Shown in pieces: positions 3,364 through 46,130 of a stretch of 64,000 bases of DNA. The stretch covers positions 14,904,013-14,968,012 of the forward strand of contig NC_092577.1 in the NCBI RefSeq assembly GCF_037975245.1. The letters are read 5' to 3'. Numbering within the stretch: the first letter of the stretch is position 1; each line of letters starts with the position of its first letter. A model generated the notes under the pieces. The model saw nothing but the letters and a program-made list of their open reading frames with translations, made no database searches and had not been told where the DNA came from. The DNA comes from Apostichopus japonicus (taxonomy: Eukaryota; Echinodermata; Holothuroidea; Aspidochirotida; Stichopodidae). The translations under genes and the position numbers were made by a program.

Positions 3364-3559
3364 TTCAAAGTATCTCTTTCGAGATCCGGCTTTAGGAATC
3401 ACAAATGATTTTCGAGTTGGATAGCATCATGTTTGATCTCTAGAGTAGGGCAAAATATGTCACCAAAAACAGAACTAGTATTGTTCGATATAGGTGACAA
3501 ACGCCTACAGTGGAATTACGATCTTCCTTACCGGTTTCGAACCTCTGGACATACAATCA

Positions 3560-3631
3560 GCGTCCATAGCCTAGTGGTTAGGGTGTCCGCGTACAGAGCG
3601 GGAGGCCCGTGGTTCGAATCCCGGTGGAGGC
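3560..3631 (+). repeat. tRNA-like sequence, copy 1 (tRNA pseudogene or SINE head)
   Basis: A 72-nt segment with a box A-like TAGCCTAGTGGTTAGGG and a box B GGTTCGAATCC. Folding by eye gives a 7-bp acceptor stem GCGTCCA/TGGAGGC with one G:G mismatch. The anticodon stem is 5 bp, TCCGC/GCGGG, around a seven-base loop GTACAGA (anticodon position ACA). The T-stem needs one bulged base. The bulge, the odd anticodon, the lack of a pol III T-run directly after it and its presence in a tandem cassette favour a tRNA-derived repeat over a working tRNA. Confidence 0.6.
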
Positions 3632-3678
3632 TGAAAGTTTTTTCACTGTTCTTGATTTTCCAACTCATTACGATTTTC

Positions 3679-3716
<38 letters not shown>

Positions 3717-3798
3717 CACCTGTTCGATACAGGTGACAAACGCCTACAGTGGAATTACGATCTCCCTTACCGGTTTCGAACCTCTGGACATACAATCA

Positions 3799-3870
3799 GC
3801 GTCCATAGCCTAGTGGTTAGGGTGTCCGCGTACAGAGCGGAAGGCCCGTGGTTCGAATCCCGGTGGAGGC
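3799..3870 (+). repeat. tRNA-like sequence, copy 2
   Basis: Same 72-nt unit as at 3560. One G-to-A change makes the anticodon stem TCCGC/GCGGA fully Watson-Crick. Boxes A and B are unchanged. Confidence 0.6.
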
Positions 3871-4170
3871 TGAAAGTTTTTTCACTGTTCTTGATTTTCC
3901 AACTCATTACGATTTTCATTTATATATATTCATTTGCCTTTGTCGTTTACCTCCATTGCATTAACATAAAGTCTGTTCAAAGTATCTCTTTCGAGATCCG
4001 GCTTTAGGAATCACAAATGATTTCGAGTTGGTCAGAATCATGTTTGATCTCTAGAGTAAGGCAAAATATGTCACCAAAAACAGAACTAGTATTGTTCGAT
4101 ACAGGTGACAAACGCCTACAGTGGAATTACGATCTCCCTTACCGGTTTCGAACCTCTGGACATACAATCA

Positions 4171-4242
4171 GCGTCCATAGCCTAGTGGTTAGGGTGTCCG
4201 CGTACAGAGCGGAAGGCCCGTGGTTCGAATCCCGGTGGAGGC
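4171..4242 (+). repeat. tRNA-like sequence, copy 3
   Basis: Identical to copy 2 across the 72 nt, as far as can be compared by eye. It is followed about 55 bp downstream by a (TA)n tract of ~50 bp. Confidence 0.6.
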
Positions 4243-4289
4243 TGAAAGTTTTTTCACTGTTCTTGATTTTCCAACTCATTACGATTTTC

Positions 4290-4344
<55 letters not shown>

Positions 4345-4348
<4 letters not shown>

Positions 4349-4452
4349 AATCATGGGGGGCGGGGGGACATGTCCCCCCAATATTTTAGGTGGGGAATAT
4401 ACGGTAGTATCTAATAGTAACTAATATCCCCCCAATATTTGGTGGCATAATT
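4345..4452 (-). repeat. ~100-bp 'CCACCAAATATTGGGGGG' element, copy 2 (inverted)
   Basis: Reverse complement of the block at 3119-3218, including the ACATGTCCCCCC and TTTGGTGGCATAA ends. With that copy it brackets the (AT)n and tRNA-like cassettes. Confidence 0.75.
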
Positions 4453-17100: not shown

Positions 17101-17460
17101 GATCCAAACTTCAGTGATGGTTCTTGTAGCCTTCTACTACGTAGTAAATATCACATTGTAGCTCTATTGTGTTTTATCATTTCATTGATAAGTATAAAGG
17201 TTAATGTACAAAAAGATTTGCTGACAATGTGACATGTGTTTCATAAAAGCATATATAAAGAAAAATGCAAGTTTTTTCTTTGGCCTATGCACAAACACTC
17301 AAACCATATACATTTACCTTGTTAAATCTTATTTATCTCATGTTGCTTTCACAGAAGCTCTGGGTTTACTTTAGCAGAAAGATAGCTTACAAGCCTTGCA
17401 ATTCTTTCCTCCTGAATCAATGAGGACTAGAATTTTTTGATAATAATCATTCACAGTCCT

Positions 17461-17697
17461 GTGTAAGTCTCAACAACCAATAGAGTAATATTAATTAATG
17501 TGATATTTGCAGAGCATTTTGTAATAATAATCATATTTTTGTCTGAGGAGAATTAATTTTGCTCTTTTGTAACAGGACATGTGTAAGTTTCAACAACTAA
17601 TAGAGTAATATTAATGTGATATTTGCAGAGCATTTTGTAATACAATAATTGTATTTTTGTCTGAGGAGAATTAACTTTGCTCTTTTGTAACAGGACA
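17461..17697. repeat. Tandem duplication of a ~118-bp unit
   Basis: Copy 1 (17461-17578) and copy 2 (17579-17697) share GTGTAAGT, CAATAGAGTAATATTAA, TTTGCAGAGCATTTTGTAAT and TTTTGTAACAGGACA. Each carries a donor-like GTGTAAGT at one end and an acceptor-like TTTTGTAACAG at the other. Confidence 0.85.
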
Positions 17698-17811
17698 CTG
17701 AAGAGATCAAATGGAAAGTTAAGTTGAAGTCTTCTCTGAAATGACTTGAATAATTTGTGTGAATTTGAAAACAGAAACAGTGACTTAGCTCACACCAAAG
17801 AATAAATTTGC

Positions 17812-17975
17812 TTGACCATGGTGGTGGGGTCAGGTAAGTGGAACAGTTTGGAATATCTGCTCATAACTTTGCTTGACCATGGGGGTCTGGTAAGTGGAAC
17901 AGTTTGGAATGTTGCTCATAACTTTTCTTGACCATGGGGGTCGAGTAAGTGGAACAGTTTGGCATGTTGCTCTGA
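17812..17975. repeat. Three tandem copies of a ~58-bp unit
   Basis: CTTGACCATGG..GTAAGTGGAACAGTTTGG is repeated at about 17812, 17872 and 17930, each with a GTAAGT word. Confidence 0.8.
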
Positions 17976-26262: not shown

Positions 26263-26376
26263 ATGGGAAGTGCAAGTGGACCTTCAATCGTTGACCAACT
26301 ACAACAAGAGATGGATGACATGAACAGGATACAGTACAGTGCAGAGTACAGTGCAGACATCAACAGTAAAATGCAG
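26263..26376 (+). CDS. MFF: MFF coding exon 1
   Basis: Residues 1-38, with the MNRIQY motif that marks the start of the conserved MFF N-terminus. Donor ATGCAG|GTATGT, phase 0. The exon itself begins at 26234. Confidence 0.87.
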
Positions 26377-29300
26377 GTATGTACATGTACAGTGCAAAGT
26401 ATAGTGCTGACAAACAGTAAACTGTAGGTACCTACAGTATAGTCAGTATTGCGAAGTTCGTAACACTGCGAAGTTCGGACACCCCTAAGAAAATACACGA
26501 TTTCACTATGACAACCTATAGCAACAGCTAATTTCACGAAAAACTACAAAGCTACATATACTTTCCCTCCAAAATGACCCGTGTGCAAGTAAATATTTGT
26601 CAATAAAATGACGGAGATCCATGAAGTCTGTTATAATTACTGAAAAACAACTGCGCCACCAATTTTATCACCAGTGCCACACTGCGGGACCAGGTGTCTG
26701 AACTTCGCAATACTCTAGCAAAGAAATACCAGTTCCACAATCACAAAGAATCTTCTTGGAATACAACGTGAAAACAGTTTGCAGGAAAGAAAGTTTGGCC
26801 GTGTATCGTAATATAACACATTTCTCCCACCATAACAAGTATATTTTAGTAGGTACCTACAGTATGTGTACAGGGTGGTGTATAGGACAGACATAAACAG
26901 TAAACTAAAGGTACGTGTACTTTATAAATATATGTATAGTATATGGTACTTTCCTTTATTAAATTTTTTATGTTGAAGGCTGTTATAAACTCTTATTTCT
27001 GCACATTGCATAGATTCTAGAACACTTTAAATTATTGCAATATATGTTCTATTAAACATCTGAGGCTGTTCATTTGAAGCAGCTAGACACACAGACCATT
27101 AGGCCAGTTCCTCATATAGATGCAACGTAAAACTCAATGAAAGAATATAACATTTCGTTACATGGCCTCAAATAACATGGTTACAAACTATTATTCAGCG
27201 ACATTATAATGAATTTGAAAACCAAACCAAGGGTGCTCTATTGTTTATATGACATAAAAAGAACTTTTCATTGCATCAGCACAATTTATAAAACAATGTA
27301 GTAACATTTTACTACATTTAAGGCCTGCACTGAGGATTGAATGTTAAAATTTACATACCTGGCAATGCATGTCTCGGTTACGTTGATCCAAGTTAACACC
27401 CGACTGTACATGAAATGTACTGTAGCTTTATGCAAGTCATGTTTAAAATAAGTCAGAAATGACAAAGTTGAGCATGAGGTTTGATGGGATAACAGTAATT
27501 ACTTGAATGTGTGGGACACAAATATTTCTGTACTGCATTGAAAGCTGAAGACCCCACAAAAAAGCCTGCTGGGTCATTTCATACAAAATCAACCAAATAC
27601 TTGGTAGGTACTGTACCCTCTTTGGTTTGGCTAAAGGCCCGGTCACACTACAGCGATATTTTATTGGAATACGGTCCGATTTTTCCGATTTTAGGCCGAA
27701 GAGTGAGGTTTGTGGTAGTGAATGTAATGAATGCAGTGGAATATTCGAATACCTACTCCAAATCTGAGGGTTTCTGGAACGGACTACATTCTGACGTGAC
27801 GTCACATCGAAAAACGATAAAAATCGGAAGAGAAATCGGATAGCTATCGGATAAAAGGAAACGGAGTCAATATCAAAAGTTAGGAGAGGGCTATTCCACA
27901 TCGGAATAGCTCAACAGATAGCAAATCAGGTCCTTTATCACTGTGGCTACTGTAGAAGACCCGAACGAAAAACTGGCTGTTTCGATTCCTCTGGGAAAAT
28001 CGGATAGTATTCCAATAAAAAATCGGTATAGTGTGACCGGACCTTTATATTATTCATATGTTGATAGCACTATCAAATGTTGATATTAACCACATAAAAC
28101 TTGTAGGTGGAATTTAAAGGATATTAAGACATTTTTGGATGTCACAGTTCATGGCTTATTCAGAGATAGATTACAACCCAACGCAACACGCAGCTTTGTT
28201 AATGCAGTCCAACATTGTCATTTATTTTTAGATGCCATCCAGGCTTAGTTTGGAGCCTGAGCAAGAATCCTACATAGACGATGAGCCACCAGAGGATGAC
28301 CTACACAGAGATATGACAGCCAGTCCTGCTCATGCTATGAATGTACCAGAGAGGATACTGTTAGCTGGTGAGGACTGCTGATATTATTGTAAATGGTATG
28401 GGGGTGGATGTGACAGCCAGTCCTGCTCAAGCTATGAATGTACCCGAGAGGATACTGTTAGCTGGTAAGGACTAGTACTGATATTATTGTAAATGGAAGG
28501 GGGGGTGGATGTGACAGCCAGTCCTGCTCATGCTGTGAATGTACCCGAGAGGATACTGTTAGCTCTGGTAAGGACTAGTACTGATATTATTGTAAATGGT
28601 ATGGGGGGTGGATGTGACAGCCAGTCCTGCTCAAGCTATGAATGTAACCGAGAGGATACTGTTAGCTGGTAAGGACTACTGATATTATTGTAAATGGTAT
28701 GGGGGTGGATGTGACAGCCAGTCCTGCTCATGCTATGAATGTACCCGAGAGGATACTGTTAGCTGGTAAGGACTAGTACTGATGTTATTGTAAATGGTAT
28801 GGGGGGTGGATGTGACAGCCAGTCCTGCTCATGCTATGAATGTAACCGAGAGGATACTGTTAGCTCTGGTAAGGACTAGTACTGATATTATTGTAAATGG
28901 TATGGGGGGTGGATGTGACAGCCAGTCCTGCTCATGCTATGAATGTACCCGAGAGGATACTGTTAGCTGGTAAGGACTACTGATATTATTGTAAATGGTA
29001 TGGGGGTGGATGTGACAGCCAGTCCTGCTCATGCTATGAATGTAACCGAGAGGATACTGTTAGCTGGTGAGGACTGCTGATATTATTGTAAATGGTATGG
29101 GGGTGGATGTGACAGCCAGTCCTGCTCAAGCTATGAATGTACCAGAGAGGATACTGTTAGCTGGTAAGGACTAGTACTGATATTATTGTAAATGGTATGG
29201 GGGGTGGATGTGACAGCCAGTCCTGCTCATGCTGTGAATGTACCCGAGAGGATACTGTTAGCTCTGGTAAGGACTAGTACTGATATTATTGTAAATGGTA

Positions 29301-32300
29301 TGGGGGGTGGATGTGACAGCCAGTCCTGCTCAAGCTATGAATGTAACCAAGAGGATACTGTTAGCTGGTAAGGACTACTGATATTATTGTAAATGGTATG
29401 GGGGTGGATGTGACAGCCAGTCCTGCTCATGCTATGAATGTACCCGAGAGGATACTGTTAGCTGGTAAGGACTAGTACTGATGTTATTGTAAATGGTATG
29501 GGGGGTGGATGTGACAGCCAGTCAGGACTGCTCATGCTATGAATGTACCCGAGAGGATACTGTTAGCTCTGGTAAGGACTAGTACTGATATTATTGTAAA
29601 TGGTATGGGGGGTGGATGTGACAGCCAGTCCTGCTCATGCTATGAATGTACCCGAGAGGATACTGTTAGCTGGTAAGGACTACTGATATTATTGTAAATG
29701 GTATGGGGGTGGATGTGACAGCCAGTCCTGCTCATGCTATGAATGTAACCGAGAGGATACTGTTAGCTGGTAAGGACTACTGATATTATTGTAAATGGTA
29801 TGGGGGTGGATGTGACAGCCAGTCCTGCTCATGCTATGAATGTACCCGAGAAGATACTGTTAGCTGGTAAGGACTGCTGATATTATTGTAAATGGTATGG
29901 GGGTGGATGTGACAGCCAGTCCTGCTCATGCTATGAATGTAACCGAGAGGATACTGTTAGCTGGTAAGGACTGCTGATATTATTGTAAATGGTATGGGGG
30001 TGGATGTGACAGCCAGTCCTGCTTATGCTATGTGAACTGTGCAATGTATATTGCAAGTCAGGGTCACTTGAGTAAAATGTTTACAAAGACTTTGTCATGA
30101 AACACAATCCATTAACATGGAAAGCATGCAACTCCAATTTATTAACGAAATCCTTTTTTTTTTTTTTTTTGTATAGGTTCTGGTTCACATGTTGGTATGC
30201 GAGAAGCTCCCAGAGACTTAGACCTAGGAGACATGTCAAGCTATCCTAGAGGTTAGTAGTTTCACATGTGGTGTTAATGGTAGCATTCTGGGCTGTGGCT
30301 TTCCATGAATGTTACAATTAAAACACAAGTCCAGAGAGTGTTTTTCATATGAATCATAGTCATTCCATATCAAAACAGGAGCATGTTGTAGTTCGACATC
30401 TTTGAAAAATTCCCAATTTTATTGTATGATTGGAACACCATGAAATAAGCATATTCTGAAAATTTCAGTTGCATTGCTTCACAATTGGCCGATTTATCAC
30501 ACTTTGAAATTCCGCATTTTGTCGCCACCGTGGCATTTTGGCATTTTTGTGACCTTTGAGGTCTCATTTCTCAGCAATTAACATCCTACTACCTTTCTAT
30601 AACAGATGCATATAGAGTCTATCCCATACAACAGGAATATAAACAATTAGGCTACAAAAATATTTTCTTGTGGCGTTACGTCAACGTAAAAGTGTCAAAA
30701 TATTCGATTTTTGTACTTTTCATTTAAAAATGTGCTGTTTTTAGTGATGAATTGCTCCTAAGCCATTGCTTCAGGGTACTTGATTCTTTCAGAGGTTATT
30801 ATGTCTAGTACAAACAATACAAAATAAATGATTACAATGCTTTCCTATAATATATTTTGCAAGTTGTGCAAGTCTTAAGTTGCTATTTCATGCTGCGATT
30901 CAGCATGAGGAAGGGGTTTTGATGCCAATTTTTTACGAAAGTAACCATGTTAGAGCTGTCAGAGTTTTATACTGTACCTTAATCATAACTATAAAGTTCT
31001 TACACCTTAACAAATTACAGGGTTCTGGCTTTTTCTCAATATTAATTTATATGAAGTTGTTAAGTTGCTCCGATGTACAAAAGAGGTCGTCTTTGACAGC
31101 CAATACCTCAAAATGCGTCATATTGAAAAAATCTGATAATTTTTTCTGGAAGAGATATAGTACCACACTGTTTGTACAAAAAATTTCAGGAGGGTGTTTT
31201 GCCTTATTTTGAAATGAAAAATCCTCAAAGTTTTGGATTTTTACAAAAAAAAAGGTTTTGTCTGTTTTGATGTTCCACATGTTTTGAGCCTGGGTATTGT
31301 ACTTCAAGGTCATTCAATTTAATACCGTGCAGTTTTTAATTTCATATAAACAAAAACTATTTGCAATGTACTTGTCTGTTTCTGGTTATTAAAAAGACTT
31401 TACTATAGAGCAGTGGATTGAATGGTTGATGCCTACAAGGGAGTGCTACAAATAAAGAGCTGAAAATCTCTGATCTTTTCTGGTTCTCACTTAATTCTTG
31501 GACAGATAGTTACTTGGAACTTTGAGCAAAATTGTATGACAAGGAATCACGAATCAACGAATCACAAAGCCAACTGGCTTTCTGTTTACATTCAAACAAA
31601 AGCATCAAACTTTAGGAACAAGATATTGAAAAGATAATTTCCTCTTCACTCTCACTATAATATCCCATAAAGTTTCAGATTGGTTGCTGCTGGTTATCGA
31701 GTAATTTCGATTTGTTATTTAGCAATCCATATAAACTTTAAAGATAATTGTAACAGAGGGTGGGATTATGTTATGTGGATGATGAATGGATGTACTTTAA
31801 AGGTGCACTATTAATGTCATTGTGTTTCAAAAGCTGTGAGTTTATCATACCAGTGTTGATATGTAAAATATTTCTTTTGATTTCTTTGAAAGTGTGTGAT
31901 GTGTTCCCTTTCTTTTCCTGCTAAGGTGAACAGGCTGTAGGGCTAACTACACCACCAAGGACCCTGACTTTAGATGAATTCCACTTCCCAACAGTCGGTA
32001 CAGAAAGGAAAGATAACAATGCAGCCATGAAGAAGCTTGCAGGGTAAGACACTAATCGTACAAACAAAAAATAGTAAACAAGCTTATATGAAGATAAAAA
32101 AGATTATATGTTAAGCATGCAGGCACAGAAAGAAAAAAACAAACATGAAGAAATATACAAGATTATATGTTAAGCATGCAGGCACAGAAAGAAAGGAACA
32201 AACATGAAGAAATATACAAGATTATATGTTAAGCATGCAGGCACAGAAAGAAAGGAACAAACATGAAGAAATGTACAAGATTATATGTTAAGCATGCAGG

Positions 32301-34430
32301 CACAGAAAGAAAGGAACAAACATGAAGAAATATACAAGATTAGATGTTAAGCATGCAGGCACAGAAAGAAAGGAACAAACATGAAGAAATATACAAGATT
32401 AGATGTTAAGCATGCAGGCACAGAAAGAAAGGAACAAACATGAAGAAATATACAAGATTAGATGTTAAGCATGCAGGCACAGAAAGAAAGGAACAAACAT
32501 GAAGAAATATACAAGATTAGATGTTAAGTATGCAGGCACAGAAAGAAAAACACAAACATAAAGAAATATACAAGATTAGATGTTAAGCATGCAGGCACAG
32601 ACACAAAGAAACAAACATGAAGATATATACAATATTAGAAGTTAAGCATGCAGGCACAGAAGAAACAAACAAACAGACATAAATATATAAACAAGATGAG
32701 ATGCTAAGCATGCAGGCACAGAAAGAAACAAACAAACATGAAGAAATATACAAGATTAGATGTTAAGCATGCAGGCACAGAAAGAAACAAACAAACAGAC
32801 ATAAATATATAAACAAGATGAGATGTTTAGCATGCAGGCACAGAAAGAAACAAACAAATATGAAGAAATATACAAGATTAGATGTTAAGCATGCAGGCAC
32901 AGAAAGAAAGGAACAAACTTGAAGAAATATACAAGATTAGATGTTAAGCATGCAGGCACAGAAAGAAACAAACAAACATGAAGAAATATACAAGATTAGA
33001 TGTTAGCATGCAGGCACAGAAAGAAACAAACAAACAGACATAAATATATAAACAAGATGAGATGTTTAGCATGCAGGCACAGAAAGAAACAAACAAATAT
33101 GAAGAAATATACAAGATTAGATGTTAAGCATGCAGGCACAGAAAGAAACAAACAAATATGAAGAAATATACAAGATTAGATGTTAAGCATGCAGGCACAG
33201 AAAGAAACAAACAAACAGACATAAATATATAAACAAGATTAGATGCTAAGCATGCAGGCACAGAAAGAAACAAACAAACATGAAGAAATATACAAGATGA
33301 GATGTTAAGCATGCAGGCACAGAAAGAAACAAACAAACAGACATAAATATATAAACAAGATGAGATGTTTAGCATGCAGGCACAGAAAGAAACAAACAAA
33401 TATGAAGAAATATACAAGATTAGATGTTAAGCATGCAGGCACAGAAAGAAACAAACAAATATGAAGAAATATACAAGATTAGAAGTTAAGCATGCAGGCT
33501 CAGAAAGAAACAAACAAACATGAAGAAATATACAAGATTAGATGTTAAGCATGCAGGCACAGAAAGAAACAAACAAACAGACATAAATATATAAACAAGA
33601 TGAGATGTTTAGCATGCAGGCACAGAAAGAAACAAACAAACAGACATAAATATATAAACAAGATGAGATGTTTAGCATGCAGGCACAGAAAGAAACAAAC
33701 AAACATACATAAATATATAAACAAGATGAGATGTTTAGCATGCAGGCACAGAAAGAAACAAACAAACATACATAAATATATAAACAAGATGAGATGTTTA
33801 GCATGCAGGCACAGAAAGAAAAAAACAAATATGAAGAAATATACAAGATTAGAAGTTAAGCATGCAGGCGTAGAAAGAAAAAAGTGAACATGAAGAAACA
33901 CAAGATTAGATGTTTGCATGCAGGCACATAACAAACATGAAGCCTGCAGGGTAAGATACATAACAAGCATAAAAATAACAAAGAAAGATGGAGAACTGTT
34001 TTGGATTAGATGATGAACATGTTGACACGTAAACAAACATAATTGTAGCAGCTTTCATGGCCTAGAGACACAGACTAAAGAAGTAACTCAATCAAATGAA
34101 AGTAAACATGGAGAAGTTAGCACGGTAAACTAAAGTAAAAGCAAGTATTTTGAATACTTTTCCCTATATCGTTATTTGTATCGTGATTTGTGTCTTGTTT
34201 GCTTCTGTTTCAGAATCGCAGATGAAAGTGCAATATTGGATAGGACAAACTCATCGTTGGAAGAACCAAACTCATATAACTTACAGAAGCAGATTAGAAT
34301 ACTTTCCAAGAAAGTCGCAGACTTAGAAGAACGACAGAATAACCGTGAATACAGAGAGACCGCCTTCATGGCGGCCGCGGTGGCTTACGTCATCTACAAA
34401 GGGTTCAAGTATTTCTCTAGTCCATACTGA
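26263..34430 (+). CDS. MFF: Mitochondrial fission factor (MFF/Tango11) homologue, five coding exons, 219 aa
   Basis: Joined exons 26263-26376, 28232-28367, 30177-30251, 31926-32043 and 34214-34430 give 660 nt with a TGA stop. MFF is a tail-anchored outer-membrane protein of mitochondria and peroxisomes that recruits the dynamin DRP1 for fission. Family marks: MDDMNRIQYSAEY at residues 17-29, NVPERILLAG at 75-84, LDLGD and the PPRTLTLDEFHFP stretch, then a Leu-heptad coiled coil at about 171-195. A hydrophobic C-terminal anchor at about 198-215 ends in KGFKYFSSPY. Length falls within the range of short MFF forms. An in-frame TGA two codons before the ATG fixes the start; that exon begins after TTTCAG at 26233, so there is an untranslated first exon upstream. 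All splice phases agree (0, 1, 1, 2). Introns 1, 2 and 4 carry repeats related to the ends of the preceding exons. Confidence 0.88.
26388..26427 (+). repeat. Degenerate tandem copy of the MFF exon 1 end and donor
   Basis: TACAGTGC, ACAAACAGTAAACTGTAG|GTACCT mirrors the exon end TACAGTGC, ATCAACAGTAAAATGCAG|GTATGT directly before it. Confidence 0.65.
26435..26850 (-). repeat. Right arm of the large inverted repeat, in MFF intron 1
   Basis: Reverse complement of 23860-24298. It is bordered on both sides by the same 17 bases GTAGGTACCTACAGTAT (at about 26424 and 26849), like a target-site duplication, so this arm looks like the inserted copy. Confidence 0.75.
26868..26920 (+). repeat. Second degenerate copy of the MFF exon 1 end and donor
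   Basis: CAGACATAAACAGTAAACTAAAG|GTACGT resembles the exon end CAGACATCAACAGTAAAATGCAG|GTATGT. It is separated from the first copy by the inserted inverted-repeat arm. Confidence 0.6.
27633..28046. mobile_element. ~414-bp 'GGTCACACTA' inverted-repeat element in MFF intron 1
   Basis: The left end AAAGGCCCGGTCACACTA and inverted right end AAAGGTCCGGTCACACTA match at 17 of 18 bases. Similarity continues into TTTTATTGGAATAC and TCCGATTTT. CGGATAGC/CGATT words fill the interior. A miniature TIR element; its superfamily is uncertain. The open frames on both strands are not genes. Confidence 0.75.
28232..28367 (+). CDS. MFF: MFF coding exon 2
   Basis: Residues 39-83 plus one base, with the NVPERILLAG motif. 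Acceptor ATTTTTAG, donor GCTG|GTGAGG. The last ~60 bases and this donor are the unit expanded in the array that follows. Confidence 0.87.
28368..30040 (+). repeat. ~100-bp minisatellite made of the MFF exon 2 end plus its 5' splice site, ~17 copies
   Basis: Each unit contains GACAGCCAGTCCTGCTCATG (exon sequence), GAGAGGATACTGTTAGC, a donor (mostly TG|GTAAGG), GACTACTGATATTATTGTAA and a GGTATGGGGGTGG linker. The GACAGCCAG word starts at about 28410, 28514, 28616, 28712, 28817, 28918, 29020, 29110, 29211, 29317, 29410, 29512, 29619, 29717, 29815, 29911 and 30008. The last unit is truncated. Units 1-7 and 8-14 repeat the same order of variants about 700 bp apart. Confidence 0.92.
30177..30251 (+). 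CDS. MFF: MFF coding exon 3
   Basis: 75 nt, phase 1 to 1, residues 84-108 plus one base. The acceptor is an unbroken T tract of about 18 bases followed by GTATAG. Confidence 0.85.
30260..31920 (+). other. MFF intron 3, no further feature
   Basis: AT-rich. Contains a 27-bp word (from 31482) also present at 9519. A segment near 31550 has CACAAAGCCAACTGGCT, also found inverted near 51490 next to NXPE. The open frames here do not resemble proteins. Confidence 0.5.
31926..32043 (+). CDS. MFF: MFF coding exon 4
   Basis: Residues 109-147 plus two bases, including PPRTLTLDEFHFP. Acceptor CCTGCTAAG, donor GCAGG|GTAAGA. Confidence 0.85.
32085..33960 (+). repeat. ~60-bp minisatellite in MFF intron 4, about 30 copies
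   Basis: Two subtypes alternate: ~60 bp (AAGATTAGATGTTAAGCATG, CAGGCACAGAAAGAAAGGAA, CAAACATGAAGAAATATAC) and ~63 bp (AAGATGAGATGTTTAGCATG with CAGACATAAATATATAAAC). Unit lengths divisible by three keep frames open on both strands, giving 95-163-codon pseudo-ORFs with no meaning. The final degenerate unit (33915-33960) reads CATGAAGCCTGCAGGGTAAG. Confidence 0.92.
34214..34430 (+). CDS. MFF: MFF coding exon 5 and stop
   Basis: Residues 148-219: the acidic linker, the coiled coil LQKQIRILSKKVADLEERQ and the C-terminal membrane anchor. Acceptor TTCTGTTTCAG; TGA at 34428-34430. Confidence 0.9.
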
Positions 34431-35109: not shown

Positions 35110-35215
35110 ACGTGCCCAGTCACATTTGTGAATTGTGGTAGAACATCATTTGAATCTGGGTTACCAGGCCAGTGCTCTACCAACAGATATCCAGCCCAGC
35201 ACTCTACCAACTGAG
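35110..35215 (-). repeat. tRNA-like head of a SINE-type repeat
   Basis: Read on the minus strand: GTTGGTAGAGCACTGGCC (box A region), then TGGTAACCCA, then GATTCAAATGATG (box B-like). The order and spacing are those of a tRNA 5' half through T-arm. The adjoining array is built from the box A segment of this same sequence. Confidence 0.6.
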
Positions 35216-36945
35216 ATATCCAGCACTCTACTAACTGAGATATCCAGCCCAGCACTCTACCAACTTAGATATCCAGCCCAGCACTCTACCAACTTAGATA
35301 TCCAGCCCAGCACTCTACCAACTTAGATATCCAGCCCAGCACTCTACCAACTGAGATATCCAGCCCAGTGCTCTACCAACTGAGATATCCAGCCCAGTGC
35401 TCTACCAACTGAGATATCCAGCCAAACACTCTAGCAACTGAAGTATCCAGCCCAGCAGTCTACCAACTGAGATATCCAGCCCAGCAGTCTACCAACTGAG
35501 ATATCCAGCCCCAGCACTCTAGCAACTGAGACATCCAGCCCAGCACTCTACCAACTGAGATATCCAGCCCAGCACTCTACCAACTGAGATATCCAGCCCA
35601 GCACTCTACCAACTGAGATATCCAGCCCAGCACTCTACCAACTGAGATATCCAGCCCAGCACTCTACCAACTGAGATATCCAGCCCCAGCACTCTAGCAA
35701 CTGAGACATCCAGCCCAGCACTCTACCAACTGAGACATCCAGCCCAGCACTCTACCAACTGATATATCCAGCCCAGCACTCTACCAACTGAGATATCCAG
35801 CCCAGCACTCTACCAACTGAGATATCCAGCCCAGCACTCTACCAACTGAGATATCCAACCCAGCACTCTACCAACTGAGATATCCATCCCAGCACTCTAC
35901 CAACTTAGATATCCAGCCCAGCACTCTACCAACTTAGATATCCAGCCCAGCACTCTACCAACTTAGATATCCAGCCAAACACTCTAGCAACTGAGATATC
36001 CAGCCCAGCAGTCTACCAACTGAGATATCCAGCCCAGCACTCTACCAACTGAGATATTCAGCCCAGCACTCTACCAACTGAGATATCCAGCCCAGCACTC
36101 TACCAACTGAGATATCCAACCCAGCACTCTACCAACTGAGATATCCATCCCAGCACTCTACCAACTTAGATATCCAGCCCAGCACTCTACCAACTTAGAT
36201 ATCCAGCCCAGCACTCTACCAACTTAGATATCCAGCCAAACACTCTAGCAACTGAGATATCCAGCCCAGCAGTCTACCAACTGAGATATCCAGCCCAGCA
36301 CTCTACCAACTGAGATATTCAGCCCAGCACTCTACCAACTGAGATATCCAGCCCAGCAGTCTACCAACTGAGATATCCAGCCCAGCAGTCTACCAACTGA
36401 GATATCCAGCCCAGCAGTCTACCAACTGATATATCCAGCCCAGCACTCTACCAACTGAGATATCCAGCCCAGCACTTTACCAACAGATATCCAGCCCAAC
36501 ACTCTAGCAACTGAGATATCCAGCCCAGCAATCTACCAACTGAGATATCCAGCCCAGCACTGTACCAACTGAGATATCCAGCCCAGCACTCTACAAACTG
36601 AGATATCCAGCCCAGCGCTCTACCAACTGAGGTATCCAGCCCAGCACTCTACGAATATATATCCAGCACTCTAGCAACTGAGACATCCAGCCCAGCGCTC
36701 TACCAACTGAGATATCCAGCCCAGCACTCTACCAATAGATATATCCAGCCCAGCACTCTACCAACTGAAATATCCAGCCTAGCACTCTTCCAAGTGAGAT
36801 ATCCAGCCCAGAGCTCTACCAACTGAGGTATCCAGCCCAGAGCTCTACCAACTGAGGTATCCAGCCCAACACTACCAATATATATCCAGCACTCTACCAA
36901 CTGAGATATCCAGCCCAGCGCTCTACCAACTCAGATATCCAACCC
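35170..36945 (-). repeat. 29-bp minisatellite, ~60 copies, tRNA D-arm-derived
   Basis: On the minus strand the unit contains GGATATCTCAGTTGGTAGAG followed by TGCTGGGCT, which is the 5' end and D-arm/box A of a tRNA. Variants (CACTCT/CAGTCT, ACTGAG/ACTTAG) occur in blocks, and a larger segment (about 35860-36060) reappears at about 36100-36300. There are no spacers, so it is not a CRISPR array. Confidence 0.9.
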
Positions 36946-44934: not shown

Positions 44935-46130
44935 TTACAAATATTCAATATTCATAGAGCATAGCACAATTACTAAAAGGGTCTTTAGGAGATTGTATGA
45001 TAGTGGTCCTCGATGTTTACCATGATCTAAATGTTTCTCAAATTGTAACAGAAATTTTAATTTATACAAAAATTCGTTAACGTTGGGAGTGCTCAAATTT
45101 ACTTTCTTCTGGAATATATAGTATTTGATATGAAAAATTAAAAAATTCAACGAATGCTGCAATAATATTGATAGCCGAAAAACATACCCGACTTGGAAAA
45201 TATAAATTGTCTATTAAAAATATGTTGCTCAACATCTAAAACAAAATCAGAAATAATTTTACACTCCCAAAACAAATGATCAATAGTCTCCTCCTTTAGG
45301 CAACAGAAAGTACATCGTGAATTGTTAATTAAACCCATCAAACTCAGAAGATGGTTTGTCCCAAGTATACGATGAAGAAAACGAAATTGAAAGTATTGTA
45401 ATTTTGTCCCCCTTAACCACTTGAAAGGAAATTGTTTACCAAATTTTTTAAGATAATAGGGAAAATACATTTTCCAATAATCCTCAATAGTTTCAGTATA
45501 TCTCTTAACCCATGTACATTTTAAACCATTAATAAAACTGCTTATATGAGTAACGTTTAATCCTTCCTCTGAAATTGAATTAATCATAACAGTACGTTTG
45601 ATTTTATCGGGTTTTCCCGCCAAGATAAAGTTATACAAAACATCATCCACAAGCTTAATAAAATAATTGGGAGGATTTGGCAAGCATTGGAATAGATACA
45701 CCAATTGAGATAAAGCAAACGTTTCACCAAAATTATTTAACCAATAGGAGTAAGGTCTCTACATGACCACAAATTCAATGACTTGGGCATGAAATTTAAC
45801 CGAAAAATTTCATCTCCATCATTGCAGATAACAATACCTAAAACAATTACTGGACCATCAGTCCACCTACAAAAATAATGGTCAATAAAGTGTGGTTTAT
45901 GAGTAATTAAAGGACCTAGTGGAAAAACACTAGACTTATCAAAGTGAATCTTACGCCCAGAAACCAGTTCAAAATCTTTCAGGATAAGAATAACCTTTCT
46001 CAATGACTCATAAGAACCATCAAGGAATAAAATAGTATGATCAGCATACTGGAGGATTTGTAATTCGTTATTTAAAATAGAAATACCTTTAACATTTAAG
46101 CTTTGAACATTTAAACTTTGTTCTTACCAA
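44935..46130 (-). pseudogene. L1/Tx1-like LINE ORF2 3' portion, 5'-truncated
   Basis: The minus-strand frames follow the order of a non-LTR reverse transcriptase. The active-site box reads YADH (46037-46048) in place of YADD. The thumb has LVSGRKIHFDKSSVFPLG. A C-terminal domain has RFLHRILGTNHLL and CTFCCLKEETIDHLFWEC, the Cys-rich reverse-transcriptase zinc-binding motif. A tail in another frame follows. Frame changes at about 45720 and 45150 plus the His substitution show it is dead. The truncation point near 46130 is typical of 5'-truncated insertions. Confidence 0.8.

Follow-up and report, generated by a model that had tools for sequence, protein, structure and literature searches.

The window, the whole stretch of 64,000 nucleotides of Apostichopus japonicus DNA that was analysed (contig NC_092577.1), contains an animal-type gene set with matches to MFF, NXPE and TMEM185A. 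The MFF homologue lies on the + strand and has five coding exons, which once joined give an uninterrupted frame of 219 amino acids; the joined protein matches the Pfam family Miff (PF05644) with 99.9 bits (curated cut-off 23) and an E value of 2.8e-28. Coding exon 1 (26263 to 26376) starts with the ATG at 26263 and ends at the donor CAG/GTATGT, coding exon 2 (28232 to 28367, 136 nt) ends at CTG/GTGAGG, coding exon 3 (30177 to 30251) at GAG/GTTAGT and coding exon 4 (31926 to 32043) at AGG/GTAAGA, all placed by frame and junctions and exon 2 additionally by the Miff match. Coding exon 5 (34214 to 34430), placed by tblastn and frame, ends with the stop codon TGA and presumably encodes the coiled-coil region and the C-terminal anchor or tail, judged from alignment to a human MFF sequence. 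This human sequence matched four of the five exons in tblastn, every match being weak (exon 1, 26311 to 26379, E 0.086; exon 2, 28286 to 28375, E 0.26; exon 4, 31937 to 32008, E 0.78; exon 5, 34209 to 34415, E 0.004), and gave no match of its own to exon 3. Additional 5' MFF exons are possible. The original prediction had treated exon 2 as a true exon, and the frame open across the five coding exons and the Miff match (2.8e-28) bear this out.

Exon 2 runs into a tandem repeat, array 1, which is the exon-end minisatellite that had been predicted in MFF. TRF found it as one array at 28310 to 30032 (+ strand; period 97, 17.3 copies, score 2854), starting within exon 2. Cutting the array at GACAGCCAGTC, which gave 18 starts, delimited 17 full units of 97 to 107 bp and a 25-base stub at 30008 to 30032 that has no donor. 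The repeat unit lies across the exon-intron boundary: unit 1 takes in the final 58 bases of exon 2 (28310 to 28367), the genuine donor and the beginning of intron 2, and is followed by 16 further full units, 88 to 98 % identical to it, each with a donor. With unit 1 counted as the true end of the exon, the further copies amount to 16 with a donor and the donorless stub, rather than about 17 as first counted, although the repeated exon end itself had been correctly recognized. The motif GT[AG]AGG is present in all 17 full units, as GTGAGG in units 1 and 8 only and as GTAAGG, the form expected for most copies, in the other 15. The later donors run from 28464 (then 28567) to 29963, with a donor-to-donor spacing of 97 to 107 nt that agrees with the predicted ladder of one donor every ~100 nt. 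Every unit also has a G-run of 5 to 7 nt, which lies 33 to 41 nt downstream of its donor. Beyond the array lies the unique 3' part of intron 2 (30033 to 30176, + strand), with a pyrimidine tract and the acceptor TATAG at 30176. This part had no detectable similarity to the array (90 of 300 shuffles scored as high), and no similarity was found for the other flank just outside the array (54 of 300).

When the units were compared in fixed register (unit 13 has a 4-base insertion), 11 of the 97 columns of the whole unit varied among the 17 units. Pairs of units seven apart were the most alike of the nine lags compared, with a mean identity of 97.1 %, a maximum that is expected from block duplication, and homogenisation or block turnover among units is thus present in array 1. 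Three of the ten pairs at this lag were identical and the rest were different, which argues for duplication of a block followed by divergence and not for a plain assembly repeat. Variation was alike in the exonic part of the unit (6 of 53 columns) and in the intronic part (5 of 44), and a 2-base, frame-breaking insertion was present in 4 of the 17 units, so the copies do not appear to be maintained as coding sequence. The same insertion, together with the in-frame stop right past the donor, ruled out that the copies serve as extra coding repeats. That they are cassette mini-exons was also ruled out: by a crude pyrimidine count none of the 60 YAGs in 28370 to 30032 had a pyrimidine-rich lead (best 0.47; 0.71 to 0.94 for the four real MFF acceptors), so that no acceptor-like site was found among them and the copies do not resemble exons.

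U1 duplex energies, computed without the modified bases of U1, were −8.6 kcal/mol for GTGAGG and −8.5 kcal/mol for GTAAGG in context, and −8.4 to −9.7 kcal/mol for the remaining three MFF donors. Approximately 2.1 % of the 3930 GT sites on the + strand, array donors included, reached −8 kcal/mol or lower. The array donors had been described as equal to or better than the genuine donor; by U1 energy they are equal, and the word better applies solely to position +3, where they have A for G. The GT and the U1-pairing core are intact in all 17 donors of array 1, which counts against regarding the array as a by-product. Selection on the donor words gave no signal. Conservation of these words beyond the overall repeat identity had been set in advance as a test, and none was detected, one of nine donor columns being variable compared to 11 of 97 in the unit (hypergeometric P = 0.73, with low power from nine columns); the donor word is therefore conserved just as much as the unit.

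Translation past the exon 2 donor reads ...PERILLAG-EDC-stop, the in-frame TGA being at 28379 to 28381 (+ strand), three codons beyond the donor and thus within the few codons that had been predicted. As this TGA precedes exon 5 (34214 to 34430), the expected truncation before the coiled coil and anchor would follow from use of any later donor. The 16 later donors lie 83 to 1582 nt past the TGA. For nonsense-mediated decay (NMD), the EJC rule needs a distance of 50 to 55 nt between stop and junction, and with at least 83 nt the products of all later donors would be NMD-prone. Use of the later donors would lengthen exon 2 from 136 nt to between 233 and 1732 nt, a lengthening that exon definition disfavours.

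A second minisatellite, array 2 (32100 to 33928, + strand; 59-bp unit, 30.5 copies by TRF), starts 57 nt past the exon 4 donor, and its unit appears related to the sequence around this donor, from the end of the exon into the start of intron 4. Just beyond the array, at 33939 to 33985 (+ strand), local alignment located the end of exon 4 a second time together with its donor (GAAGCCTGCAGG/GTAAGA), here called the distal copy. Six local-alignment/shuffle comparisons were made for arrays 1 and 2 together. The exon 4 exon-intron junction (32032 to 32081) aligned with the distal copy at a score of 38 and with array 2 units at a score of 36, and in both cases none of 300 shuffles scored as high (best shuffle 35). 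The coding part of exon 4 alone matched array 2 weakly (7 of 300 shuffles as high), and for the distal flank of array 2 against the array 4 of 300 shuffles were as high. Since the stretches are A-rich and the shuffle margins small, array 2 likely but not certainly descends from the end of exon 4. The word GCAGG occurs 33 times in 32021 to 33990, a count that leaves out array 2 units in which the word has changed; GTAAGA comes right after the word in the two edge copies, and none of the 31 internal words is followed by GT. Reading through the exon 4 donor gives an immediate TAA. Exon-end repeats thus seem to have expanded on two occasions in the MFF gene, the donors being kept in one array and lost in the other. 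For two of the four MFF donors the 5' edge of a TRF array is at most 60 nt away (binomial P ~0.006, from a pool of 17 TRF arrays of period at least 25), a value that is just a guide because the 60-nt cut was picked after the arrays had been seen.

Several other repeats and elements are found in the window. At 17460 to 17972 a 118-bp repeat of two copies, the unit of which ends in the acceptor-like TTTTGTAACAG/GACA, precedes a 55-bp repeat of 2.7 copies with the donor-like words CAGGTAAGT at 17831, GGTAAGT at 17889 and GAGTAAGT at 17943; this may be a further exon of which both edges are repeated. A minisatellite of 62 copies of a 29-bp unit (35164 to 36945) lies past the MFF coding region, on its downstream side, and part of the unit, CTCTACCAACTGAGATAT, seems to resemble the reverse complement of the D-arm region of tRNA. 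Three tRNA-like stretches above the Rfam cut-off (3560 to 3632, 3799 to 3871 and 4171 to 4243) occur in 3433 to 4349, in repeated sequence adjoining AT runs. A 165-bp unit is present three times at 1405 to 1898 (97 % matches), and an ORF with a zf-RVT match at 45147 to 45704 is likely a retroelement remnant.

Array 1 is probably a minisatellite of the 'mirage' type described from amphioxus, the copies of which are removed with intron 2 and have no function. A segment with the exon 2 end, its donor and the intron 2 start would have been duplicated in tandem, the copies would have multiplied by unequal exchange or replication slippage, and a block of seven units would later have been duplicated. 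Splicing most likely still proceeds from 28367 to the acceptor at 30176, as the proximal donor ends an exon of normal length (136 nt) and is transcribed first, and the copies would leave with the intron. An occasional mRNA from a later donor would carry the early stop and would likely be a target of nonsense-mediated decay, and such occasional use would therefore cost little. The similar layout of array 2 behind the exon 4 donor also counts in favour of the mirage reading.

The original prediction had further suggested that copy number could tune the amount of productive mRNA. The array donors would then compete with the exon 2 donor, the PTC-bearing mRNA from later donors would be lost to NMD and the number of copies would set MFF output. 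Seventeen donors of near-equal U1 energy, and a stop followed by 16 later donors in NMD geometry under the EJC rule, are consistent with this proposal, and use of some array donors is possible by the precedent of human IFI6, in which array donors are used (text excerpt of PMC4526556). The suggestion is nevertheless without support and quite unlikely, the array donors being neither conserved beyond the unit nor stronger, array 2 of the same gene being free of internal donors in the tested register, and other mirages, those of amphioxus, being reported as normally spliced in the excerpts of PMC3087553 and PMC3902484. A wider version, in which the 17 near-equal donors act as a length-variable switch that turns a share of the MFF pre-mRNA, dependent on copy number, into truncated transcripts prone to NMD, by which germline or somatic array length would set the capacity for mitochondrial fission while array 2 would have been neutralised by loss of its internal donors, appears just as unlikely.

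G-runs can have a role in splicing. It might be that U1 or hnRNP H is drawn to the array by its repeated U1 sites and G-runs, which in this way would strengthen the first donor or shield intron 2 from premature polyadenylation. Each of the 17 units does provide both a U1-pairing donor and a G-run, but the donor has no conservation signal and array 2 has no internal donors, and this role as decoy or enhancer is very unlikely. Inflation of the copy number of array 1, or its misassembly, is most unlikely. The mirage of a draft amphioxus globin gene has been reported as aberrantly assembled (excerpt of PMC3087553) and the identical pairs among the units seven apart would fit such an error, but the remaining seven of the ten pairs differ, and a simple repeated piece of contig is therefore no explanation; the copy number is given as assembled.

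Exon-end minisatellites pose the question of how the spliceosome selects a single donor when many are equivalent. MFF contains two such arrays as a natural pair: the donors are all intact in one, and the internal units of the other are donorless. With both in one gene, MFF is well suited to testing whether the choice of donor depends on nothing but position, through exon definition and through being transcribed first.

Amphioxus 'mirages' are tandem repeats over exon-intron boundaries, which PMC3087553 describes for the globin genes BflGb6 and BflGb9, with Adh3 cited. According to that text, Adh3 data and globin RT-PCR suggest that regular splicing is undisturbed by mirages, the repeated signals could serve as cryptic sites, mirage haplotypes differ in length and the Adh3 mirage is somatically unstable. 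PGBD5, itself scarcely supported by transcripts, has two mirage arrays, at exons 3 and 4, and the Adh and troponin C mirages are stated to generate no aberrant mRNAs (excerpt of PMC3902484). Units of 10 to 160 bp and homogenisation within clusters are given in the excerpts of PMC3087553 and PMC3902484. Array 1 matches the amphioxus mirages in three anatomical features, the boundary-spanning unit, the repeated splice signals and the homogenisation, and the occurrence of two arrays in one gene, as in MFF, is shared with PGBD5 as excerpted. The gene is different (MFF), there are 17 donor-bearing units compared to the 2 to 7 units given in the excerpts for BflGb6 and PGBD5, and array 2, with donors at its edges only, would be a degenerate case.

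In the human IFI6 minisatellite two downstream repeat units act as donors, giving three mRNA species (excerpt of PMC4526556, which cites by title Turri 1995 on IFI6, also 6-16 or G1P3, as a minisatellite with multiple splice donors). The likeness to array 1 lies in a minisatellite that supplies multiple splice donors. The IFI6 units are reportedly short, of 12 nt, and add codons in frame, whereas the units here are of ~100 nt and any later donor would truncate the protein. The Rogers model, as cited in the excerpt of PMC3087553, holds that introns are gained when AG/GT proto-splice sites are duplicated; it has in common with array 1 the tandem duplication of a splice-site-bearing segment, but here there is no new intron and the copies lie within an existing one, without an acceptor-like site. 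An MFF array is not named in literature titles among the matches listed, which are mostly titles and starts of abstracts. By its anatomy, array 1 is likely a new example of an already published kind.
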